Of a stretch of 64,000 nt of DNA, positions 27,900-37,527 are shown piece after piece. The position numbers and the translations under genes are program-made. This DNA is from Dialister histaminiformans (GTDB lineage: Bacteria > Bacillota > Negativicutes > Veillonellales > Dialisteraceae). The notes beneath the pieces are model-generated. The model saw nothing but the letters and a program-made list of their open reading frames with translations. It was not told the origin of the DNA and did not search any database. Within the stretch, counting starts at the first letter, position 1. The number at the start of each line of letters is the position of its first letter. The stretch lies in assembly GCF_900103425.1 (NCBI RefSeq), contig NZ_FMXA01000003.1, positions 62,001-126,000 on the forward strand, in the 5' to 3' direction.

Positions 27900-30800
27900 C
27901 TACTTACCGGTAAAATATCTTACCCCTGCAGCAAAGAGCGGCTGATATTTTTCTCCGGAAATATTTTTGGCTATATTGTCTCCCCGGCGTTCCGAATGAC
28001 CCATCTTGCCCAGCACTCTGCCATCCGGACTGGTAATGCCTTCCACAGCCCAGACGGATTCATTAGGATTAAATGTGCTGTCATAGGATGCATGACCGAG
28101 TTCATCCGTATACTGAGTAGCTATCTGTCCATTAGCCGCCCATGCTCTGATCTGTTCAGGAGAGGCAATAAACCGGCCTTCCCCATGGCTGATGGCAATG
28201 CTATGCAGGTCTCCCGGCTTAGTCAGTGCCAGCCACGGCGATTTAACGGATACCACTTTGGTTGTCACATAGCGGGACAGATGTCTGCCAATCGTATTGA
28301 ATGTCAGCGTCGGAGCGTCTCCGGTCAGCGGCTTGAATTCGCCGTACGGAACCAGTCCCAGCTTAATCAGAGCCTGGAATCCATTGCATATACCAAGTAC
28401 GAGACCATCTCTTCTATGCAGCAGCGCTTCCATCGCTTCTTCCAGCTTGCGGTTTCTGAACAGTGCGGCGATAAACTTGCCGGATCCATCCGGTTCATCA
28501 CCAGCTGAGAATCCCCCTGGAATCATAACGATCTGCGCTTCATTAATGCGTCTTACCATTTCATCCACTGATTCCGCCAGTTCGGCCTGATCTCTGTTGC
28601 GTACGATGAAGATATCGGTGTCGGCACCGGCTCTTTCAAAAGCACGGGCGCTGTCCACTTCGCAGTTATTACCCGGAACTACCGGAATGAACACCTTCGG
28701 TCTTGCTGCCTGCACTCTGGCAAAGCTTCTTACCGCCGGTGTAAAGTATGGGATTTCCGGAATTTCACGGGTGCTGCTTTCCGCCTGAATCGGGAATATA
28801 TCATTCAGCGGTGCTTCATACGCTTTCAGCAGTTCATCCAGAGAAACGGTTTCCCCAAAGAGCTTCATATCTTCTCCGCCGGTTACGCCAATAATGCGTA
28901 CACATGGCTGCTTAGCCCATTCCTGTGCCGATGCTTCATCGGTTTCTACCAGAATGGCTCCATAGAAATTACCAAAATATCTGCTCTTCGGAATCGCCTC
29001 ATTGAATACGGCGCCGATACGGTTGCCGAACGCAGCTTCTGCCGCCGCAACGGCCAGACCGCCATGTCCTACCGCCTTCATGGAACGTACATGCCCGGCC
29101 TGTACTTCTCTGTACAGGAAATCAGCATGTGCCTTGAATATATCCATATCCGGCATATCATTGGCATCCTTAGGCTGTCCAAACAGTACCAGGGTGCTTC
29201 CGCTTTCTTTCCATTCCTGACTTACTGCTTCGGAGGCCTTCCCAGGCGCAATGGCAAAGGAAACCAGTGTGGGTGGAACATGAAGATTTTCAAATGTACC
29301 ACTCATGGAGTCCTTGCCGCCGATAGCTCCCAGTCCGAGGACCTTCTGCATGTAATAAGCGCCGAGGAGGGCAGCTGCCGGTTTACCCCAGCTGGATGCA
29401 TCGGTCAGTTTTTCGAAATATTCCTGCAGTGTCAGATAAGCCTTTCTCCAGTCAGCCCCCATGGACACCAGACGAGTTACGGACAGAAGTACCGCATACG
29501 CCGCGCCATGGAACGGACTCCATACAGCCAGGTCCGGATCATATCCATGTGCCATGAAGCTTGCTGTATCGGTTTCCCCATGACGAAGCGGAATCTTAGC
29601 CACCATGCCGTCTGCCGGGGTCTTCTGATATTTGCCGCCAAACGGCATCAGTACGGTACCCGCGCCGATGGTGCTGTCAAAACGTTCGGCCAGCCCCTGT
29701 TCTGAAGCATTATTCAATTCTCCCATACGGGAAACCCAGAGGTCATGTACAGATTCAACCGGATCTTCATGGAAATATCCATGGGCATCCGGTGCTGTGA
29801 TATGTGCTGTCCGTGTCTGTCTTGCCCCATTGGTATTCAGGAATTCACGGCTGATATCCACTATGGTCTGGCCTCTCCACTTCATAACCAGACGCGGATT
29901 TTCAGTTACTCTGGCAATGATGGTTGCTTCCAGATTTTCTTCTGCCGCATAAGCGATGAAACGGTCCGCATCTTCTGCGCGTACTACCACCGCCATACGT
30001 TCCTGGGATTCAGAAATTGCAAGTTCAGTACCACCCAGACCTTCATATTTCTTAGGTACGCGGTCCAAATTGATATCTACCCCGTCGGTCAGTTCGCCTA
30101 CAGCGACAGAGACACCACCGGCGCCAAAATCATTAGACCGCTTGATCAGACGGGTTACTTCTCCGCGTCGGAACAGGCACTGAATCTTTCTTTCCGTAAT
30201 CGGATTACCCTTCTGTACTTCAGCTCCGCAGGTTTCGATAGAGTCCACATCCAGTTCCTTGGAAGAGCCGGTAGCACCGCCCATACCATCACGACCTGTA
30301 CGTCCGCCAACCAGGATGACCACATCCCCCGGTGCCGGCCGTTCACGTACCACATGGCTGGCCGGAGCCGCTGCCACAACGGCACCGATTTCCATGCGCT
30401 TGGCAACAAAGCCTGGATGATAGTATTCTCTTACTTCCCCGGTAGCCAGACCAATCTGGTTGCCATAGGAGCTGTATCCTGCAGCTGCTTCCGTTGTAAT
30501 CTTCTTCTGCGGAAGCTTGCCTTCCAGCGTTTCAGACAACGGAGTTCTTGGATCCCCGGATCCGGTTACGCGCATAGCCTGATATACATAGGCACGTCCG
30601 GAGAGCGGATCACGGATACATCCGCCAAGGCAGGTAGCGGCCCCGCCAAACGGTTCAATTTCCGTTGGATGATTGTGTGTTTCATTCTTAAACAGAAGAA
30701 GCCAGTCTTCATCCCCATGGTCGGTATCCACAGTAATCTTAATGGTGCATGCATTGATTTCTTCGGACTCATCCATTCCGGTGAGTTTTCCCTCACGGCG

Positions 30801-31646
30801 AAGGGCTTTAACCGCTGCCGTAGCCATATCCATCAGGGTAACTGGACGTTCGGTGTTCTCCCCATAGAGTCTGATTCGGGTGGTTTCGTAATCTTTCAGC
30901 GCATTCCGCACCGGTTCTGTAAATTTTCCTTCTTCACAGGTAATATCTTCCAGTGCTGTGGAAAAGGTGGTATGGCGGCAATGATCCGACCAGTACGTAT
31001 CAAGCACCCGGATTTCCGTTTCGGTAGGATCTCTTTTTTCCACGTCCCGGAAATAATCCCGCACCATAACCATATCGGCATGACTCATCGCCAGTCCCAT
31101 GCGGGCGATAACTTCGTCAAGCCCCTGGTCATCCATACCGGTAACTCCGGTAATGACCGGAACATCGCCCGGTTCTTCTATCGGAAGATCGAGGGTCTGT
31201 GCCGGCGCCGTGGAAGCTTCTCTGGATTCCACCGGATTGACCAGGAATTTCAGGACTCTGGCCCTGTCTTCGTCTTCAAAATGCCCGGTAAGTACATAAT
31301 GCAGTGCGCAGCGCACGCGGATGCCATCCTTCCCTGTGAGAATGGCCAGGCACTGTTCTGCTGAATCTGCCCTCTGATCATACTGACCTGGTAAAAATTC
31401 TACGGCCAGAACCATATCGCCGTCCGGCATGCTGTCGGTCAGCGCATCGACCGGCGGTTCTGAAAACACGGTAACTTTTGCCTGTTCATAATCAGCATCA
31501 TTGATACCTTCTACATCGTATCGATGATAAATGGCCACTCCTTCAATGCGATTCCCAAGAACTTCTCTGAGCGCATTGCACAGGCGTGTTTCTGCCTGTC
31601 TGAATCCTTCTTTTTTCCTTACATAAAGACGTCTGATTGATGCCAA
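27900..31646 (-). CDS. purL: Phosphoribosylformylglycinamidine synthase, fused large form
   Basis: 1248 aa, the single-chain form (synthetase plus glutaminase) seen in Proteobacteria and many Clostridia. It converts FGAR and glutamine to FGAM in purine synthesis. Visible parts: linker/ATP region DTYWSDHCRHTTFST, FKNETHNHPTEIEPFGGAAT, ASYDSTFNP, and the C-terminal glutaminase with nucleophile Cys in LGICNGFQALIKLG and His-Glu in ISHGEGRF. The frame reaches a GTG at 31655 that sits inside the Shine-Dalgarno; TTG at 31646, 8 nt after AGGAG, is the better start. No other pur gene is beside it. Confidence 0.95.
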   Translation of the reverse strand: MASIRRLYVRKKEGFRQAETRLCNALREVLGNRIEGVAIYHRYDVEGINDADYEQAKVTVFSEPPVDALTDSMPDGDMVLAVEFLPGQYDQRADSAEQCLAILTGKDGIRVRCALHYVLTGHFEDEDRARVLKFLVNPVESREASTAPAQTLDLPIEEPGDVPVITGVTGMDDQGLDEVIARMGLAMSHADMVMVRDYFRDVEKRDPTETEIRVLDTYWSDHCRHTTFSTALEDITCEEGKFTEPVRNALKDYETTRIRLYGENTERPVTLMDMATAAVKALRREGKLTGMDESEEINACTIKITVDTDHGDEDWLLLFKNETHNHPTEIEPFGGAATCLGGCIRDPLSGRAYVYQAMRVTGSGDPRTPLSETLEGKLPQKKITTEAAAGYSSYGNQIGLATGEVREYYHPGFVAKRMEIGAVVAAAPASHVVRERPAPGDVVILVGGRTGRDGMGGATGSSKELDVDSIETCGAEVQKGNPITERKIQCLFRRGEVTRLIKRSNDFGAGGVSVAVGELTDGVDINLDRVPKKYEGLGGTELAISESQERMAVVVRAEDADRFIAYAAEENLEATIIARVTENPRLVMKWRGQTIVDISREFLNTNGARQTRTAHITAPDAHGYFHEDPVESVHDLWVSRMGELNNASEQGLAERFDSTIGAGTVLMPFGGKYQKTPADGMVAKIPLRHGETDTASFMAHGYDPDLAVWSPFHGAAYAVLLSVTRLVSMGADWRKAYLTLQEYFEKLTDASSWGKPAAALLGAYYMQKVLGLGAIGGKDSMSGTFENLHVPPTLVSFAIAPGKASEAVSQEWKESGSTLVLFGQPKDANDMPDMDIFKAHADFLYREVQAGHVRSMKAVGHGGLAVAAAEAAFGNRIGAVFNEAIPKSRYFGNFYGAILVETDEASAQEWAKQPCVRIIGVTGGEDMKLFGETVSLDELLKAYEAPLNDIFPIQAESSTREIPEIPYFTPAVRSFARVQAARPKVFIPVVPGNNCEVDSARAFERAGADTDIFIVRNRDQAELAESVDEMVRRINEAQIVMIPGGFSAGDEPDGSGKFIAALFRNRKLEEAMEALLHRRDGLVLGICNGFQALIKLGLVPYGEFKPLTGDAPTLTFNTIGRHLSRYVTTKVVSVKSPWLALTKPGDLHSIAISHGEGRFIASPEQIRAWAANGQIATQYTDELGHASYDSTFNPNESVWAVEGITSPDGRVLGKMGHSERRGDNIAKNISGEKYQPLFAAGVRYFTGK

Positions 31647-31724
31647 ATTGAACACTCCTTTCGCTTATATGCGAAGAAAGACTTAAAGAGAATACGAAAA
31701 CACACCAGATTAGTAAATTCTGAC

Positions 31725-31838: not shown

Positions 31839-32531
31839 CTACAGACTGCCCAGCCTCTTTGTATACATGGCTTTGGCCGCATCATCAATGGCAAAAACCA
31901 GTGGCTGCTTTCCTTCATCCGGGGTCAGCAGCATAAGCATATCAATATCATTCCCGTTTCGCATAAAATACATACGGCTGTACATAGGATAAATCAGACC
32001 ATCGGAATCAAAAATAATCTTTCCGCCTGCCGTATACAGCAAACTCTGCAGTGTCACCTTTCTCAGCGGCTCCATTTCAGTAAAATGTATTTTCAAATTA
32101 GCCCGGCCTTCCGTACCAATAACCCGTTCTGCCCAGGACCCCATGGTTTTCCGTATTTCACGCATAAGGGGAGAATCTTCATTCAGAATCTGTTTGTTCA
32201 TATATAAAAGGCCTGTCCATTCACTGCTGCTCAAATTCAATTTGAAATATGGCAGAAGATAAGCGGATACCTGCGACGGAAGGGTGCCGGCAATAAGATA
32301 GCCGGAAGAAAAGTTCTCTGTCTTCGGATCAACAAATGATACCTGTCCCATGTGATACTTCATAGGCTGCCCTAAAAACTGAATGGAATAATCACTGGCT
32401 ATGTCCGTATAGGAAAACTCCTTCGGAAGTGCAGATGACATATCTTCCTTAAAACTTTCCGCCTGAACAGAAGATATGGAAAGGCATACTGCACCCAGCA
32501 GAATCAGTAATCTTTTTTTCCACGCATTCAT
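31839..32531 (-). CDS. Exported protein A of a tandem four-member family
   Basis: 230 aa. Sec signal (KKRLLILLGAVCLSISSVQA). No known domain. It has a beta-rich look with a SGYLIAGTLPSQ strand near residue 76 and SDGLIYPMYSRMYF at residues 176-189. The G-[LI]-x-x-P motif 52 residues from the end is shared with the exported proteins at 32528, 34514 and 35275, though overall identity is very low. Its start overlaps the previous gene by ATGA. Probably periplasmic or surface-exposed; function unknown. Confidence 0.65.
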   Translation of the reverse strand: MNAWKKRLLILLGAVCLSISSVQAESFKEDMSSALPKEFSYTDIASDYSIQFLGQPMKYHMGQVSFVDPKTENFSSGYLIAGTLPSQVSAYLLPYFKLNLSSSEWTGLLYMNKQILNEDSPLMREIRKTMGSWAERVIGTEGRANLKIHFTEMEPLRKVTLQSLLYTAGGKIIFDSDGLIYPMYSRMYFMRNGNDIDMLMLLTPDEGKQPLVFAIDDAAKAMYTKRLGSL

Positions 32532-33319
32532 ACCCCGTCCCCCCTCTTAAGCTGGTAAAGTGAAGCCAGCCACGGCTCATCCAGTTCTGCTCCTGCCATA
32601 TGGCTTCCTTCCAGATAAATCAGAAAGTACTGATCACCTTCTCTGAAAAAAGCAGAATAAATCCATACCGGGAAAGACAGTCCCCGATAATCTGTCACCA
32701 CCGCCTTTGCCTCCTGTTGCCAGCGATATGTTCCATCCGCATTCTTATAAGCATGCCAGGGTGCAAAGGACATAACCTTAATCTTCATCTTATTCCCCTT
32801 ACGCGATGCCAGAAAGCGATCGAATATACTCTGATACTCTGACAGCTGAATCTTGGGAAGGCCAAATAAGGACGTAGGGCGGTCACTGCCCTCACTGAAT
32901 GCCTTATCCCAGAATGCACGCACCCGGGAATCCGGGAACAGCTCTTTCCCATTGCCGGACACAACAAATACACCCGCCGTATACTGTCCCTGCGGTTTCT
33001 TCATCTGCAGCTGATACAGGTGGGCCCGGTTAAATGGATGTGTTCCCTTTTCAGCAAACAGATCCATTCCCGGAGGAATCGCCACTATTTCCATAAATGC
33101 AGCCTGTGAGGATTCACCAAAATCAGGACGCTGCGTGTTCTCAATAAACATTTTTTCCACCGAACTGCCTTTTCCATCCACCAGGTGCATATCATGTGGA
33201 AGCGGTATAGTTCCCAGTCCGGGTACAGACAATACATTCTGCGCCATGGCCAGCGCCGAAACAGAGATAAATCCGGCTGCCAGAATGCCTGTCCTTATTT
33301 TTTTCAGAATACGATTCAT
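32528..33319 (-). CDS. Exported protein B of a tandem four-member family
   Basis: 263 aa from the ATG at 33319 (GGAGGG upstream; the frame extends six codons further). Signal peptide ends near SALAMA. The mature start SVPGLGTIPLPHDMHLVDGK resembles the mature start of protein D (VLPQGEVLPLTDKVTVWNGQ), and YRGLSFPVWIYSAFF at residues 211-225 is its copy of the G-L-x-x-P motif. Beta-rich, no cysteines of note, no known domain. Coupled to protein A. Function unknown. Confidence 0.65.
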   Translation of the reverse strand: MNRILKKIRTGILAAGFISVSALAMAQNVLSVPGLGTIPLPHDMHLVDGKGSSVEKMFIENTQRPDFGESSQAAFMEIVAIPPGMDLFAEKGTHPFNRAHLYQLQMKKPQGQYTAGVFVVSGNGKELFPDSRVRAFWDKAFSEGSDRPTSLFGLPKIQLSEYQSIFDRFLASRKGNKMKIKVMSFAPWHAYKNADGTYRWQQEAKAVVTDYRGLSFPVWIYSAFFREGDQYFLIYLEGSHMAGAELDEPWLASLYQLKRGDGV

Positions 33320-33494
33320 AATTCCCTCCACGGTCATTACAATGCTTCCTTTATTTTAGTTTAAAAAGAGAAAGGATGCTATAGCCTTTTCCGTTTATCC
33401 TCCGCATAATGGAACCCCGGGCAAATTCCTGTGCTACAATGAAACTGATATATGCATCATAGCTCCAACTATTAATTTCCTGAGGTTTTTATCA

Positions 33495-34469
33495 ATGAAA
33501 CTACAATGGATGACCACCCTTCTCCTGACTTCCTGTATTTCCCTTGCCGGATATTGCGGCTCCGGCGCGGCGGAAATGCATTCGCCCATACCGCTCCAGC
33601 AGGAAATTCCTCCGGCCCCCGGGTACTTTAATGGACGCCTGTGGAGGCTGGACGCTTCCGCTTCTTCCCCCTTCCCTTCCCATTTCCGGACATCGGCATC
33701 CGCCTTTGATTTATCTCTGCCTCATAAGCTGCCCCTGCCTTCCCGCAAAGGACTTGACAGACTCCGTATATCCGGCAGCGCACAGCCTTCCGGTATGGCC
33801 ATCCCCGCCCTTGCGCGCCATCTGAAATATCTGGCTTCAGGCGGCCCGGTTTTCCTGATTGATCTCCGCCAGGAATCCCACGGGTTCTTTAACGGAAATG
33901 CGGTAAGCTGGTATGGCAACCGCAACTGGGCCAACCGGAATAAGACAACGGAAGCGGTCTGTCAGGACGAAAAAGAACGGATTCAATCCGCCTGTGGCAC
34001 TCAGGTCACGGTATATTCACTGAATGAAGAGAAAGAACCGGCCGATGCAGAAAAAATCACTGTACAGTCTGCCAGTACAGAGGAGGCCTTAGCCGCCCGG
34101 GCCGGGCTCCATTATGTCCGCTTTCCCATAACCGACCATACGACCCCATCCGAAGCCACCATACGTCAGTTCATTTCCTTTATGCGTAGCCTGCCGCCGG
34201 ATGCATGGGTTCATTTTCACTGTGAAGCTGGCATGGGCCGTACTACCACAATGATGATTCTGTGGGATATTTACAATAATCCGGAACTGCCGCTGGAAAC
34301 CATAGTGGAGCGACAGCACCTTATCGGAGGAGCGCAGATCAGCCTGTATCCGCAGGAAGAACGCAAAGGCCCATGGAAATTCAATGAATCCCAAAGCCGG
34401 GCCCGGATAATACATATGTTTTATGACACTATGCATTCCCAATCAGCTTCCCATGCTGACAGGGCATAA
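33495..34469 (+). CDS. Secreted cysteine phytase-like (PTP-like) inositol phosphatase
   Basis: 324 aa. Signal peptide in residues 1-25. Residues 110-310 match the protein-tyrosine-phosphatase-like myo-inositol phosphatases (Selenomonas PhyA type): LIDLRQESHGF (122-132), NAVSWYGNRNWANRN, general-acid loop PITDHTTPSE (Asp214) and P-loop HCEAGMGRTT with nucleophile Cys243 and Arg249, then RQHLIGGAQISLYP. Family members stepwise dephosphorylate phytate outside the cytoplasm. The residues 26-100 Pro/Ser-rich start is unlike a catalytic domain. Activity on phytate rather than another phosphate ester is an inference. It lies alone, plus strand, between two minus-strand pairs of exported proteins. 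Confidence 0.88.
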   Translation: MKLQWMTTLLLTSCISLAGYCGSGAAEMHSPIPLQQEIPPAPGYFNGRLWRLDASASSPFPSHFRTSASAFDLSLPHKLPLPSRKGLDRLRISGSAQPSGMAIPALARHLKYLASGGPVFLIDLRQESHGFFNGNAVSWYGNRNWANRNKTTEAVCQDEKERIQSACGTQVTVYSLNEEKEPADAEKITVQSASTEEALAARAGLHYVRFPITDHTTPSEATIRQFISFMRSLPPDAWVHFHCEAGMGRTTTMMILWDIYNNPELPLETIVERQHLIGGAQISLYPQEERKGPWKFNESQSRARIIHMFYDTMHSQSASHADRA

Positions 34470-34515
34470 AAAAACAGGGGTTGCGAAAGAAATTACTTTC
34501 GCAACCCCTGTTTTT
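34470..34515. terminator. Bidirectional terminator between the phytase-like gene and protein C
   Basis: 20-bp perfect stem AAAAACAGGGGTTGCGAAAG with loop aaatta. It overlaps the stop codon of the minus-strand gene. Confidence 0.93.
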
Positions 34516-35278
34516 ACTGTGCCATTTTCCTGACCAGTTCATCTGATTTTTCTTTGATCAGCTTAAATTCACTATCCCGGCAGATTACCGTCATAAAATG
34601 AATATGTGCCTGAGAACGGAACAGATACTGACGTATGTGCAGAGGAAAGAGTATTCCGTCAATCGATGCCACCATGCGCATATCCGCCACATAGATTCTT
34701 GGTCTCTGTGACAGAAGGGTTGGCCCGTGAATCTGATTTACATCCACAGCGGCAAAATCATATGGCAGTGGAAAATCCTCATCCCTTACGGCCTCTACTC
34801 CATGCAGCAGACTGGCATTAATGATATCTCCGGCTGCCATCTGCATACGACCATAAAACGTAAGAATATTCTGTGAAGCTTCCGGCATGGTATCTGCAGC
34901 AAAGAATCCTCCCAGAACCGGATCATCAGCCAGTGAATCCATCATGAAGACCAATGCTGCTGTCTGCCTCCCCTTCTGGGAAATCAGCAGTGTTCCTTGA
35001 GAAGACTCTGCCCTTCCCACAGGATAAAAAGAAACATGACGTGGAAAAGAAGCTTTCTGCATCACCCCATCAGCCAGCTTTACAGAACGCTTAAAATAAT
35101 TCTGCAACGCTATCTTTGCCTGCATCTGCTGATTTACCGTATCCTTCACCGTATCTATGGTTTCCGCTGCCTCATAAGGCATATGAAGTTCTGCTCCCGC
35201 TGTAGCAGGTTCTTCAGCCAGAGCCACTGCATTGCCTGCAATCAGCAGTGTAGCTATTCCTGCAATCAGGCGTTTCAT
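34514..35278 (-). CDS. Exported protein C of a tandem four-member family
   Basis: 254 aa. Signal peptide (KRLIAGIATLLIAGNAVALA). After a helical region it has SSQGTLLISQKGRQTAALVF (92-111) and ASIDGILFPLHIRQYLF (204-220), the latter with the G-I-x-x-P motif 46 residues from the end. No known domain. Its start is ATGA-coupled to protein D. Probably periplasmic; function unknown. Confidence 0.65.
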   Translation of the reverse strand: MKRLIAGIATLLIAGNAVALAEEPATAGAELHMPYEAAETIDTVKDTVNQQMQAKIALQNYFKRSVKLADGVMQKASFPRHVSFYPVGRAESSQGTLLISQKGRQTAALVFMMDSLADDPVLGGFFAADTMPEASQNILTFYGRMQMAAGDIINASLLHGVEAVRDEDFPLPYDFAAVDVNQIHGPTLLSQRPRIYVADMRMVASIDGILFPLHIRQYLFRSQAHIHFMTVICRDSEFKLIKEKSDELVRKMAQ

Positions 35279-36021
35279 CGGCTGGCTCTCCTGAGTGCTT
35301 CCTGCAGAATAGGTTCAAAATAATTTCCTGCCGTTTCATCCGTGAGAATCAGATTATAGGTTGTACCTTCCTTGTTCTCTAAGGAAAAACCGCCTGCATA
35401 AACCGGAAGCAGTAAGCCGCTCTGATTAATCAATACGTGAGCATGTACTTCCTTATAATCAATTCCCTTTTGAGATTTTCCTTCCCTGACTTTAGAAACA
35501 TCGCTGACACTGACTGCCTGATTTTCCTTATTCAGCGCTCTTCCCAATGCTTCCCCCAGAATATCCTGCACAGGCTTTTTGCTATCCTGTACCCCTTTTT
35601 CACTCAGTACACTCTCATCAATCAGCCGTTCCAGAGCTGCCTTATCCTTATCCGATACAGGCATGGAAACCACAAATCCGGTATAGAAGGTATTGTTTAC
35701 TTCACTTCGAACCTGATACATACGGCTATTCTTCAGAAGAGAAGCTGTCAGTTTCGCCAGCTCTTCTGCATTCTGTTTGTGCTTTTCGTTAAATATGCCA
35801 GCTTTGGTAAACTCCTTCTCCAGTGTCTTTACCAGATTGTCTGATTCCAGAAACTCAGACACGTATGTCCCCAGAAAAGAACTTTGACCGTTCCAGACGG
35901 TCACTTTATCAGTAAGCGGCAAAACTTCTCCCTGTGGAAGCACCAGATTATCCGCAAAGACACCAGTCATACTCAATGCACAAAATCCTGCAGTTGCTGC
36001 TGCACATAACCACTTTTTCAT
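35275..36021 (-). CDS. Exported protein D of a tandem four-member family
   Basis: 248 aa from the ATG at 36021, which has AAAGGAG 6 nt upstream; the frame extends five codons more. Signal peptide ends near GVFA. A helical, Lys/Glu-rich middle (residues 60-100, 125-180) is flanked by FYTGFVVSMPVS and NQSGLLLPVYAGGFSL (199-214). The G-L-x-x-P motif is 46 residues from the end. No known domain. It starts 48 bp after the pncB stop, with no terminator between them. Function unknown. Confidence 0.65.
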   Translation of the reverse strand: MKKWLCAAATAGFCALSMTGVFADNLVLPQGEVLPLTDKVTVWNGQSSFLGTYVSEFLESDNLVKTLEKEFTKAGIFNEKHKQNAEELAKLTASLLKNSRMYQVRSEVNNTFYTGFVVSMPVSDKDKAALERLIDESVLSEKGVQDSKKPVQDILGEALGRALNKENQAVSVSDVSKVREGKSQKGIDYKEVHAHVLINQSGLLLPVYAGGFSLENKEGTTYNLILTDETAGNYFEPILQEALRRASR

Positions 36022-36069
36022 AAATTCTCCTTTCACGGAAAAATATCATAGCCCTCTCCCTGACTACTA

Positions 36070-37527
36070 TCAGGTAAGATGATGTTTGTCTGCCAGTTCT
36101 CTGGCAATAATTTCCTTCTTGAGCTCCTGCAGTCTGCAGGACAGATTAACTTCCATAATATCCGGATTGACCAGCCGGGTATATTCAGGCCACAACGTAG
36201 CCATTTCCTGATTTGCATAATCAATGATTTCTGAAATCTCCGGTAATTTTACCGCCTTTCCCTTCTGAATCAGAGGCTTAAGAAGAGGTCTTACAGTAAA
36301 CGATCCAGCCCGGAGGTGTTTCTTTCTCCAGGGAGCTGCCTCCGTAACGAAAACCACATCCCTATCTTCCCGGATTTCCTCTCCCTGAAGGCATACCAGA
36401 TCGGTAATCATCTTTCCATTATCCTTCCGATAGAAGCGGTATACTTCCTTAATGCCCGGATTGGTAATCTTATGCACATCTTCAGAAATCTTCATTACCG
36501 GCTGAACTTTGCCATCTTCCCATCTTGCACTCATCTTGAAGACTCCACCCAGAGCTGAAGAGCCATCTGCAGTAATGCATTTGGTTCCTACACCCCAGGA
36601 AGTTATGGTAGCGCCCTGGTGTTTCAGTGACTGAATCAGATATTCATCCAGATCATTGGATCCACTGATGATGGCATCCGGCAATCCGGCCTCTGTAAAC
36701 ATTCGCTTTGCCTCTTTGGACAGATAGGCCAGATCCCCGCTGTCAATGCGGATACCATATACTTTTGGCAGTTTTCCCTGTGCCTTTAACTCATGGAAAA
36801 CCGTGATCGCGTCCGGTACACCTATTTCCAGCACATTGTAGGTATCTGCCAGAAGAATCAGGTTCTCATGATAACATTTTACATATTCACGGAAAGCATC
36901 AATTTCATGGTCAAAACTCATTACCCAGCTGTGAGCCATGGTCCCCAGTACAGGAATATGGAATCGCTGACCAGCTTCCACATTACTGGTCCCATTAAAC
37001 CCGCCAATCATGGCTGAGCGGGCTCCCCAGAGTCCGGCCGACTGCCCCTGCGCTCTGCGCAGTCCAAATTCCATAAGTGCATCACTGCCCACTACCGTAC
37101 GAATGCGCCTGGCTTTAGTCGCTATGAGACTTTCATGATTCATAATCATAGAAAGTCCTGTTTCCATCAGCATGGCTTCTGCTGTAGTTCCATGGAAACG
37201 AAGCAACAGTTCTCCAGGGAAAACAACCGTCCCTTCCGGAACGGCATAAATATCCCCATGAAAGCGGAACCCGGCCAGATAAGACAGGAATTCTTCGCTG
37301 AAAATTCCAAGACTTCTTAAATAAGCTATATCTTCTTCATCATACCGAAAATTATTGACAAACTCTGTCAGATGAGAGAGCCCTGCCACTACAGTATATC
37401 CGCCGCCAAAAGGATTCTGCCGGTAAAACCGATCAAAGACTACCTGATTTTTATGCCGCCCCAGCCGAAACAGCGCATACGTCATCGATATCTGATAAAA
37501 ATCTGTCACTAACCCTGTAGATTTCAT
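36070..37527 (-). CDS. pncB: Nicotinate phosphoribosyltransferase
   Basis: 485 aa, the long Firmicutes-type NAPRTase. It makes nicotinate mononucleotide from nicotinate and PRPP for NAD salvage. Motifs: LVTDFYQISMTYALFRLG at the start, EFGLRRAQGQ, GGFNGTSNVEAG, MAHSWVMSF with the phosphorylated-His region, and IRIDSGDLAYLS for ribose-phosphate binding. An extended -10 (TGGTATACT) lies 77 bp upstream. It may be co-transcribed with exported proteins D and C. Confidence 0.94.
   Translation of the reverse strand: MKSTGLVTDFYQISMTYALFRLGRHKNQVVFDRFYRQNPFGGGYTVVAGLSHLTEFVNNFRYDEEDIAYLRSLGIFSEEFLSYLAGFRFHGDIYAVPEGTVVFPGELLLRFHGTTAEAMLMETGLSMIMNHESLIATKARRIRTVVGSDALMEFGLRRAQGQSAGLWGARSAMIGGFNGTSNVEAGQRFHIPVLGTMAHSWVMSFDHEIDAFREYVKCYHENLILLADTYNVLEIGVPDAITVFHELKAQGKLPKVYGIRIDSGDLAYLSKEAKRMFTEAGLPDAIISGSNDLDEYLIQSLKHQGATITSWGVGTKCITADGSSALGGVFKMSARWEDGKVQPVMKISEDVHKITNPGIKEVYRFYRKDNGKMITDLVCLQGEEIREDRDVVFVTEAAPWRKKHLRAGSFTVRPLLKPLIQKGKAVKLPEISEIIDYANQEMATLWPEYTRLVNPDIMEVNLSCRLQELKKEIIARELADKHHLT

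Follow-up and report, generated by a model that had tools for sequence, protein, structure and literature searches.

Four predicted exported proteins of Dialister histaminiformans belong to one unnamed Negativicutes family and are encoded by two copies of a two-gene cassette

The window, i.e., the whole stretch of 64,000 nucleotides of Dialister histaminiformans DNA that was analyzed, contains four minus-strand genes in two pairs, E-D and B-A, which are listed with their neighbors in Table 1. The positions given in a preliminary description of the locus were confirmed by open reading frame (ORF) calls; the genes named E and D here were labeled D and C there. The start and stop codons of D/E and of A/B overlap in an ATGA, and such an overlap was seen in most relatives as well. 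Longer starts are possible for E (GTG at 36036) and B (ATG at 33337). The N-termini of all four proteins, read by eye, consist of a hydrophobic stretch followed by an AxA-like site, and a lipobox cysteine was absent from each of the sequences. Judged from these N-termini, the proteins are probably exported and periplasmic. The earlier statement that they have no known domain held, as no family of Pfam, NCBIfam, or PADLOC covered any of the four and PHROGs returned only marginal matches, none of them significant. Moreover, no PDB chain matched the family by sequence below E = 0.1, and the literature search found no paper on these proteins.

Table 1. Positions of the paired genes and their neighbors in the window, and of the fused genes found in genus g8.
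Feature	Position	Strand	Description
Gene E	35275-36021	-	248 aa; predicted exported protein, B/E type; first gene of cassette 1; GLLLP at 35404-35418
Gene D	34514-35278	-	254 aa; predicted exported protein, A/D type; second gene of cassette 1; GILFP at 34643-34657
Gene B	32528-33319	-	263 aa; predicted exported protein, B/E type; first gene of cassette 2; GLSFP at 32669-32683
Gene A	31839-32531	-	230 aa; predicted exported protein, A/D type; second gene of cassette 2; GLIYP at 31986-32000
pncB	36070-37527	-	nicotinate phosphoribosyltransferase; 49 bp upstream of E; kept cassette neighbor in Veillonellales
purL	27900-31655	-	follows cassette 2 downstream, as it does in other genomes of the Dialister family
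Phytase-like gene	33495-34469	+	exported cysteine-phytase-like phosphatase between the cassettes; PF14566, E = 1.8e-30; P-loop HCEAGMGR
Inverted repeat	34466-34516	.	T tails; lies where the ends of D and the phytase-like gene converge; -33.4 kcal/mol, z -11.3
Fused ORF L132	8598-10682		genus g8
Fused ORF L133	9751-11838		genus g8
Fused ORF L134	10042-12216		genus g8

The phytase-like gene between the two pairs is real, as its Pfam match and P-loop indicate. The inverted repeat beside it is near-perfect, with 20-bp arms and T tails on both strands, and is likely to be a strong bidirectional terminator that parts cassette 1 from what follows.

As claimed in the preliminary description, the motifs GLIYP (A), GLSFP (B), GILFP (D), and GLLLP (E) begin 52, 50, 46, and 46 residues ahead of the final residue, respectively. 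In the same C-terminal zone, G[LI]xxP occurred in at most 13 of the 496 neighboring ORFs of ≥150 aa (2.6%, family members counted); thus, its presence in four of four proteins is far beyond chance. The direct pairwise identity among the four does not exceed about 20%, and the only links made by BLAST-type searches were those of A to D and of E to A-type relatives. The proteins were therefore compared as profiles, for which ortholog sets were gathered from their own order (Veillonellales). The hhalign probabilities were 99.3% for A/D, 98.9% for B/E, 95.8% for B/D, 94.3% for A/E, 92.3% for A/B, and 54.1% for D/E, compared with 0.1–1.3% for reversed-sequence controls and 0.1–0.2% when a phytase profile was set against the family profiles. 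A profile that included the A protein of the window and excluded its B, D, and E retrieved all four from their own genome (A, 1.2e-55; E, 1.2e-11; D, 4.9e-7; B, 2.0e-6). An HMM built from the four C-termini alone gathered all four proteins rather than only one; of 2,851 ORFs, those that it matched at E < 1 were 55 family members and a single outsider, scored against a family list defined by the other profiles. A, B, D, and E are distant paralogs of one unnamed Negativicutes family. The idea of four unrelated proteins sharing a chance motif, to which the low pairwise identity and the few BLAST-type links would lend themselves, is refuted by the profile comparisons, the 2.6% background rate, and the C-terminal HMM, and is also contradicted by the trees and the cross-retrieval.

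The resemblance of B and E at the mature N-terminus was found to be real, with their profiles aligning over 232 columns. The proposal that the exported proteins form a fast-evolving tandem family not yet named was likewise supported. The loose similarity that had been noted among the four does reflect homology, but their genes in fact make up a single two-gene cassette that is present twice.

The G-x3-P strand motif near the C-terminus and a YQ strand are conserved in the family (alignments A10, A4, A5, and A6). Among the deep relatives (alignment A10), P200 and D223 were invariant and Q95 was near-invariant; a conserved pattern of catalytic residues was looked for across these relatives and none was seen. 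G[LI]xxP is best explained as a structural hallmark, not an active site. A short strand motif spotted by eye can thus flag true homology at about 20% identity.

The history of the cassette was read from separate trees of its two protein types. In the A/D-type tree, A and D were sister clades in the Dialister family (98/92), and the AD1 and AD2 copies of the Veillonella-family genus g8 were sisters (100/97). The B/E-type tree showed the same two sister events, namely, B and E in the Dialister family (97/93) and BE1 and BE2 in g8 (94/88). Therefore, the whole cassette was duplicated twice, independently: one duplication, which gave E-D and B-A, took place at the base of the Dialister family and the other in genus g8. 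The two types themselves are best explained as derivatives of a single ancestral gene that is still solitary in deep Negativicutes, where one homolog was found with varied neighbors. Most of the Veillonellales carriers examined had the two-gene cassette, with the B/E type followed by the A/D type. The cassettes were apart in G007, G009, and G010, and B-A still adjoined purL in G007 and G009. In G004 and G008, a fifth gene was found between the cassettes (E-D-E2-B-A), and G006 looked alike, split over two contigs. This E2 gene (L070 and L073 in G004/G008) is a third B/E-type gene and occupies the exact site of the window's phytase-like gene.

In three g8 genomes (G017, G060, and G035), the first cassette is fused into one exported ORF of ~695 aa, in which the B/E part comes first and the A/D part follows with no second signal peptide. 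In fusion L132, residues 1–428 matched a separate B/E-type gene and residues 438–694 an A/D-type gene. The fusion, the translational overlap, and the duplication of the cassette as a unit point to a physical pair; judging from these genomic patterns, the partners encoded by one cassette most likely form a heterodimer.

The first class-wide profile search matched 59 of 350 Negativicutes genomes. At a cutoff of E ≤ 0.001, an improved profile matched 57 of 234 good Negativicutes genomes and, taken overall, 26 of 86 genera. A profile scan of genome contigs returned only three Dialister loci (UBA7295, UBA1703, and D. succinatiphilus), and no relatives of the family were found in the viral contigs searched. 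Orthologs of E were present in nine other Dialister-family genomes, with 27–35% identity where measured. The family was absent from most Megasphaera-like genomes. The one other genome of the same genus that was compared (G001, 99% complete) had no member of the family, which shows that the family is dispensable.

The structures of A and B were predicted separately with AlphaFold2, using alignments of four sequences each (the window protein and L096–L098). The model of A had a pLDDT of 78.9 and a pTM of 0.76; that of B had a pLDDT of 65.6 and a pTM of 0.69 and was partly of low confidence. Each begins with two or three strands, continues through several consecutive helices into three or four long antiparallel strands, and closes with a C-terminal helix. 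G[LI]xxP stands at the start of one of these long strands toward the C-terminus, which is followed by the final strand and helix. In Foldseek searches of the PDB, DcrB (6e8a), EagT6/SciW, CyanoP/PsbP, LpqN (6e5d), MTC28, and PA94 (1tu1) led for A and B. The match lists of the two models overlapped (6e8a, 6xrf, 2xb3, 6e5d, 4pws, and 1tu1), with probabilities of up to 0.99; hence, the two predicted structures have fold neighbors in common and do not look like unrelated folds. The Foldseek E-values were only about 1e-3, and the best TM-score was 0.33 by query length and 0.49 by target length, compared with a threshold of 0.5 for confident superposition; these scores came from four-sequence models bearing a long helical insert. 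According to the models, A and B are likely, though not proven, to have a PsbP/Mog1/DcrB-like alpha/beta/alpha fold, and D and E are predicted to share it through their profile homology to A and B.

The DcrB family (PF08786), which includes the Eag/DUF1795 chaperones EagT6 and SciW, ranked near the top of the structural matches for both models. Its members resemble the window proteins in being small and non-enzymatic, with few conserved residues and a layout of hairpin, strand, and terminal helix. EagT6 and SciW are cytoplasmic chaperones of the type VI secretion system of about 145 residues, whereas the window proteins are larger, paired, and apparently exported. Membership in PF08786 by sequence was rejected, since no Pfam match was obtained and a direct PF08786 search of the source genome was empty. 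HMM comparison with true Negativicutes DcrB proteins gave a probability of at most 27–34%, covering only the last strand and helix, about 30–40 C-terminal columns; the profile of the deep set gave 26.9%, against 0.2% for the reversed control, over the C-terminal 41 columns only. This similarity of profiles may be regarded as suggestive only. Two tandem genes of the true DcrB family (PF08786), separate from the present family, were observed in another Negativicutes genome (G110:C77; L165 / L151, L153).

PsbP is an extrinsic assembly subunit of photosystem II. PsbP/CyanoP structures were matched by A and B (2xb3, 2lnj, and 2vu4) and have the fold of an exported extrinsic subunit in common with them. 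However, no sequence link was found, no photosystem is present here, and the window proteins have a longer middle helical insert. LpqN was the top PDB match of A and the ninth of B. LpqN and MTC28 (Rv0040c) are exported, envelope-linked accessory proteins of mycobacteria; LpqN differs in being a lipoprotein, whereas the window proteins have no lipobox cysteine, and neither a sequence link nor a neighboring MmpL gene was found. Mog1 was a structural match of B (1eq6 and 1jhs), but it is a eukaryotic nuclear Ran-binding protein and offers no functional parallel. Eag proteins (EagT6/SciW) bind and hold the transmembrane domains of effectors (PMC7773334), and LpqN interacts with MmpL3 and MmpL11, which are MmpL transporters of envelope biogenesis (PMC7458404).

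The homology, pairing, duplication history, fusion, and export-type N-termini were established by computation. As for function, each pair is read as a soluble, periplasmic, heteromeric PsbP-like assembly that would act as a non-enzymatic chaperone or adaptor for the envelope (probability of about 0.55). The role is suggested by what the fold relatives EagT6/SciW, LpqN, and PsbP do. Each of the cassettes E-D and B-A yields one B/E-type and one A/D-type exported protein; the two are made together and would pair in the periplasm. By analogy with the fold relatives, the pair would most likely assist a diderm-envelope component that sits in a membrane or in the outer membrane, and the second, diverged cassette would serve a second client.

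Negativicutes have two membranes within a mostly one-membrane phylum. To our knowledge, the lineage-specific envelope proteins of Negativicutes are largely unnamed. In the outer-membrane proteome of V. parvula, 28 of 78 proteins had no clear function (PMC5491611). A broader version of the chaperone/adaptor reading, which we put forward only tentatively, is that the family is a class-wide envelope machine of diderm Firmicutes. Such a heteromeric PsbP-like chaperone or adaptor of the periplasm would be encoded by a single gene in deep lineages, would have been split into two co-translated subunits in Veillonellales and duplicated whole, twice, for separate clients, and might be tied to the unusual outer membrane of the class.

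The rapid divergence of the proteins could also be read as the mark of an arms race with phages or hosts, in which these would be fast-changing envelope proteins comparable with DcrB, a protein that affects phage DNA entry in E. coli. A, B, D, and E are 22–41% identical between relatives where pncB and purL are 68–76% identical in the same comparison, and DcrB is among the fold neighbors. Fast divergence by itself is, however, common among exported proteins; the synteny is stable, the trees are vertical, and neither PADLOC nor PHROGs gave a match of significance, on which ground a defence or phage family was rejected. An arms race is thus considered unlikely.

The earlier statement that the genes follow pncB proved to describe a conserved feature across several families of Veillonellales. 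The gene immediately upstream of the cassette is pncB in the window, in G002, G008, and G009, and in six g8 genomes and one g11 genome; in two f2 genomes, pncB lies a short way upstream. Its position directly upstream in three family-level groups could suggest a part in nicotinate/NAD salvage, in which the proteins would bind or process an NAD precursor in the periplasm and feed PncB. A deep Negativicutes genome (L138, 8275-12654) points the same way, as its only homolog is oriented divergently from genes whose N-terminal sequences look like those of nadA-nadB-nadC. On the other hand, the product of PncB arises in the cytoplasm, and no ligand-binding protein family matched. Furthermore, Veillonella g7 and G007 carry the proteins with no pncB nearby (E-D follows a tuf-like gene in G007), B-A adjoins purL, and the deep homologs have varied neighbors. 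A role in salvage is accordingly held to be improbable.

The arrangement of the pairs around a phytase-like gene, which had been proposed as a possible general linkage, did not stand as a rule. The phytase is about 1–2 kb from the cassette in six g8 species and lies between the cassettes here, and phytase and cassette proteins are both exported, which would fit a single system for scavenging phosphate or inositol phosphate. Those are the only places where the two are close. The phytase was present in 14 of 61 Veillonellales genomes and in 3 of 11 Dialister-family genomes, being on a different contig or about 0.9 Mb off in the other two of the latter; most cassette carriers have none. It is distant from the cassette in G002, G009, G049, and G059, and the Megasphaera-like f3 genomes have the phytase and no cassette. 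In the phytase tree, the window copy grouped with that of G059 and not with those of g8, on long branches that leave the join unsure. In the window, it is on the opposite strand, behind the strong terminator. Given its absence from most carriers, its placement elsewhere, and the separation of the copies in the tree, the phytase was rejected as part of the system, and joint scavenging is very improbable. The phytase is most likely a bystander, with a weak functional link to the cassettes possible.

Thus, proteins that appeared to be unrelated orphans are now united in one real family, with a likely fold, a pairing backed by fusion, and duplications placed by trees. The family is unnamed and class-wide, with an unusual paired, twice-duplicated organization and a fold that is likely a known one. 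This opens it to co-purification and to deletion experiments in Veillonella.

A weaker fifth relative of 231 aa (L164, G000:C18:966-1661), with the N-terminus GIGSMKLPAG, was found outside the window, so that the source genome has at least five paralogs. It lies directly downstream of a glutaminyl-tRNA synthetase-like gene, and a counterpart occupies the same place in G004 (L173, 5117-5788).
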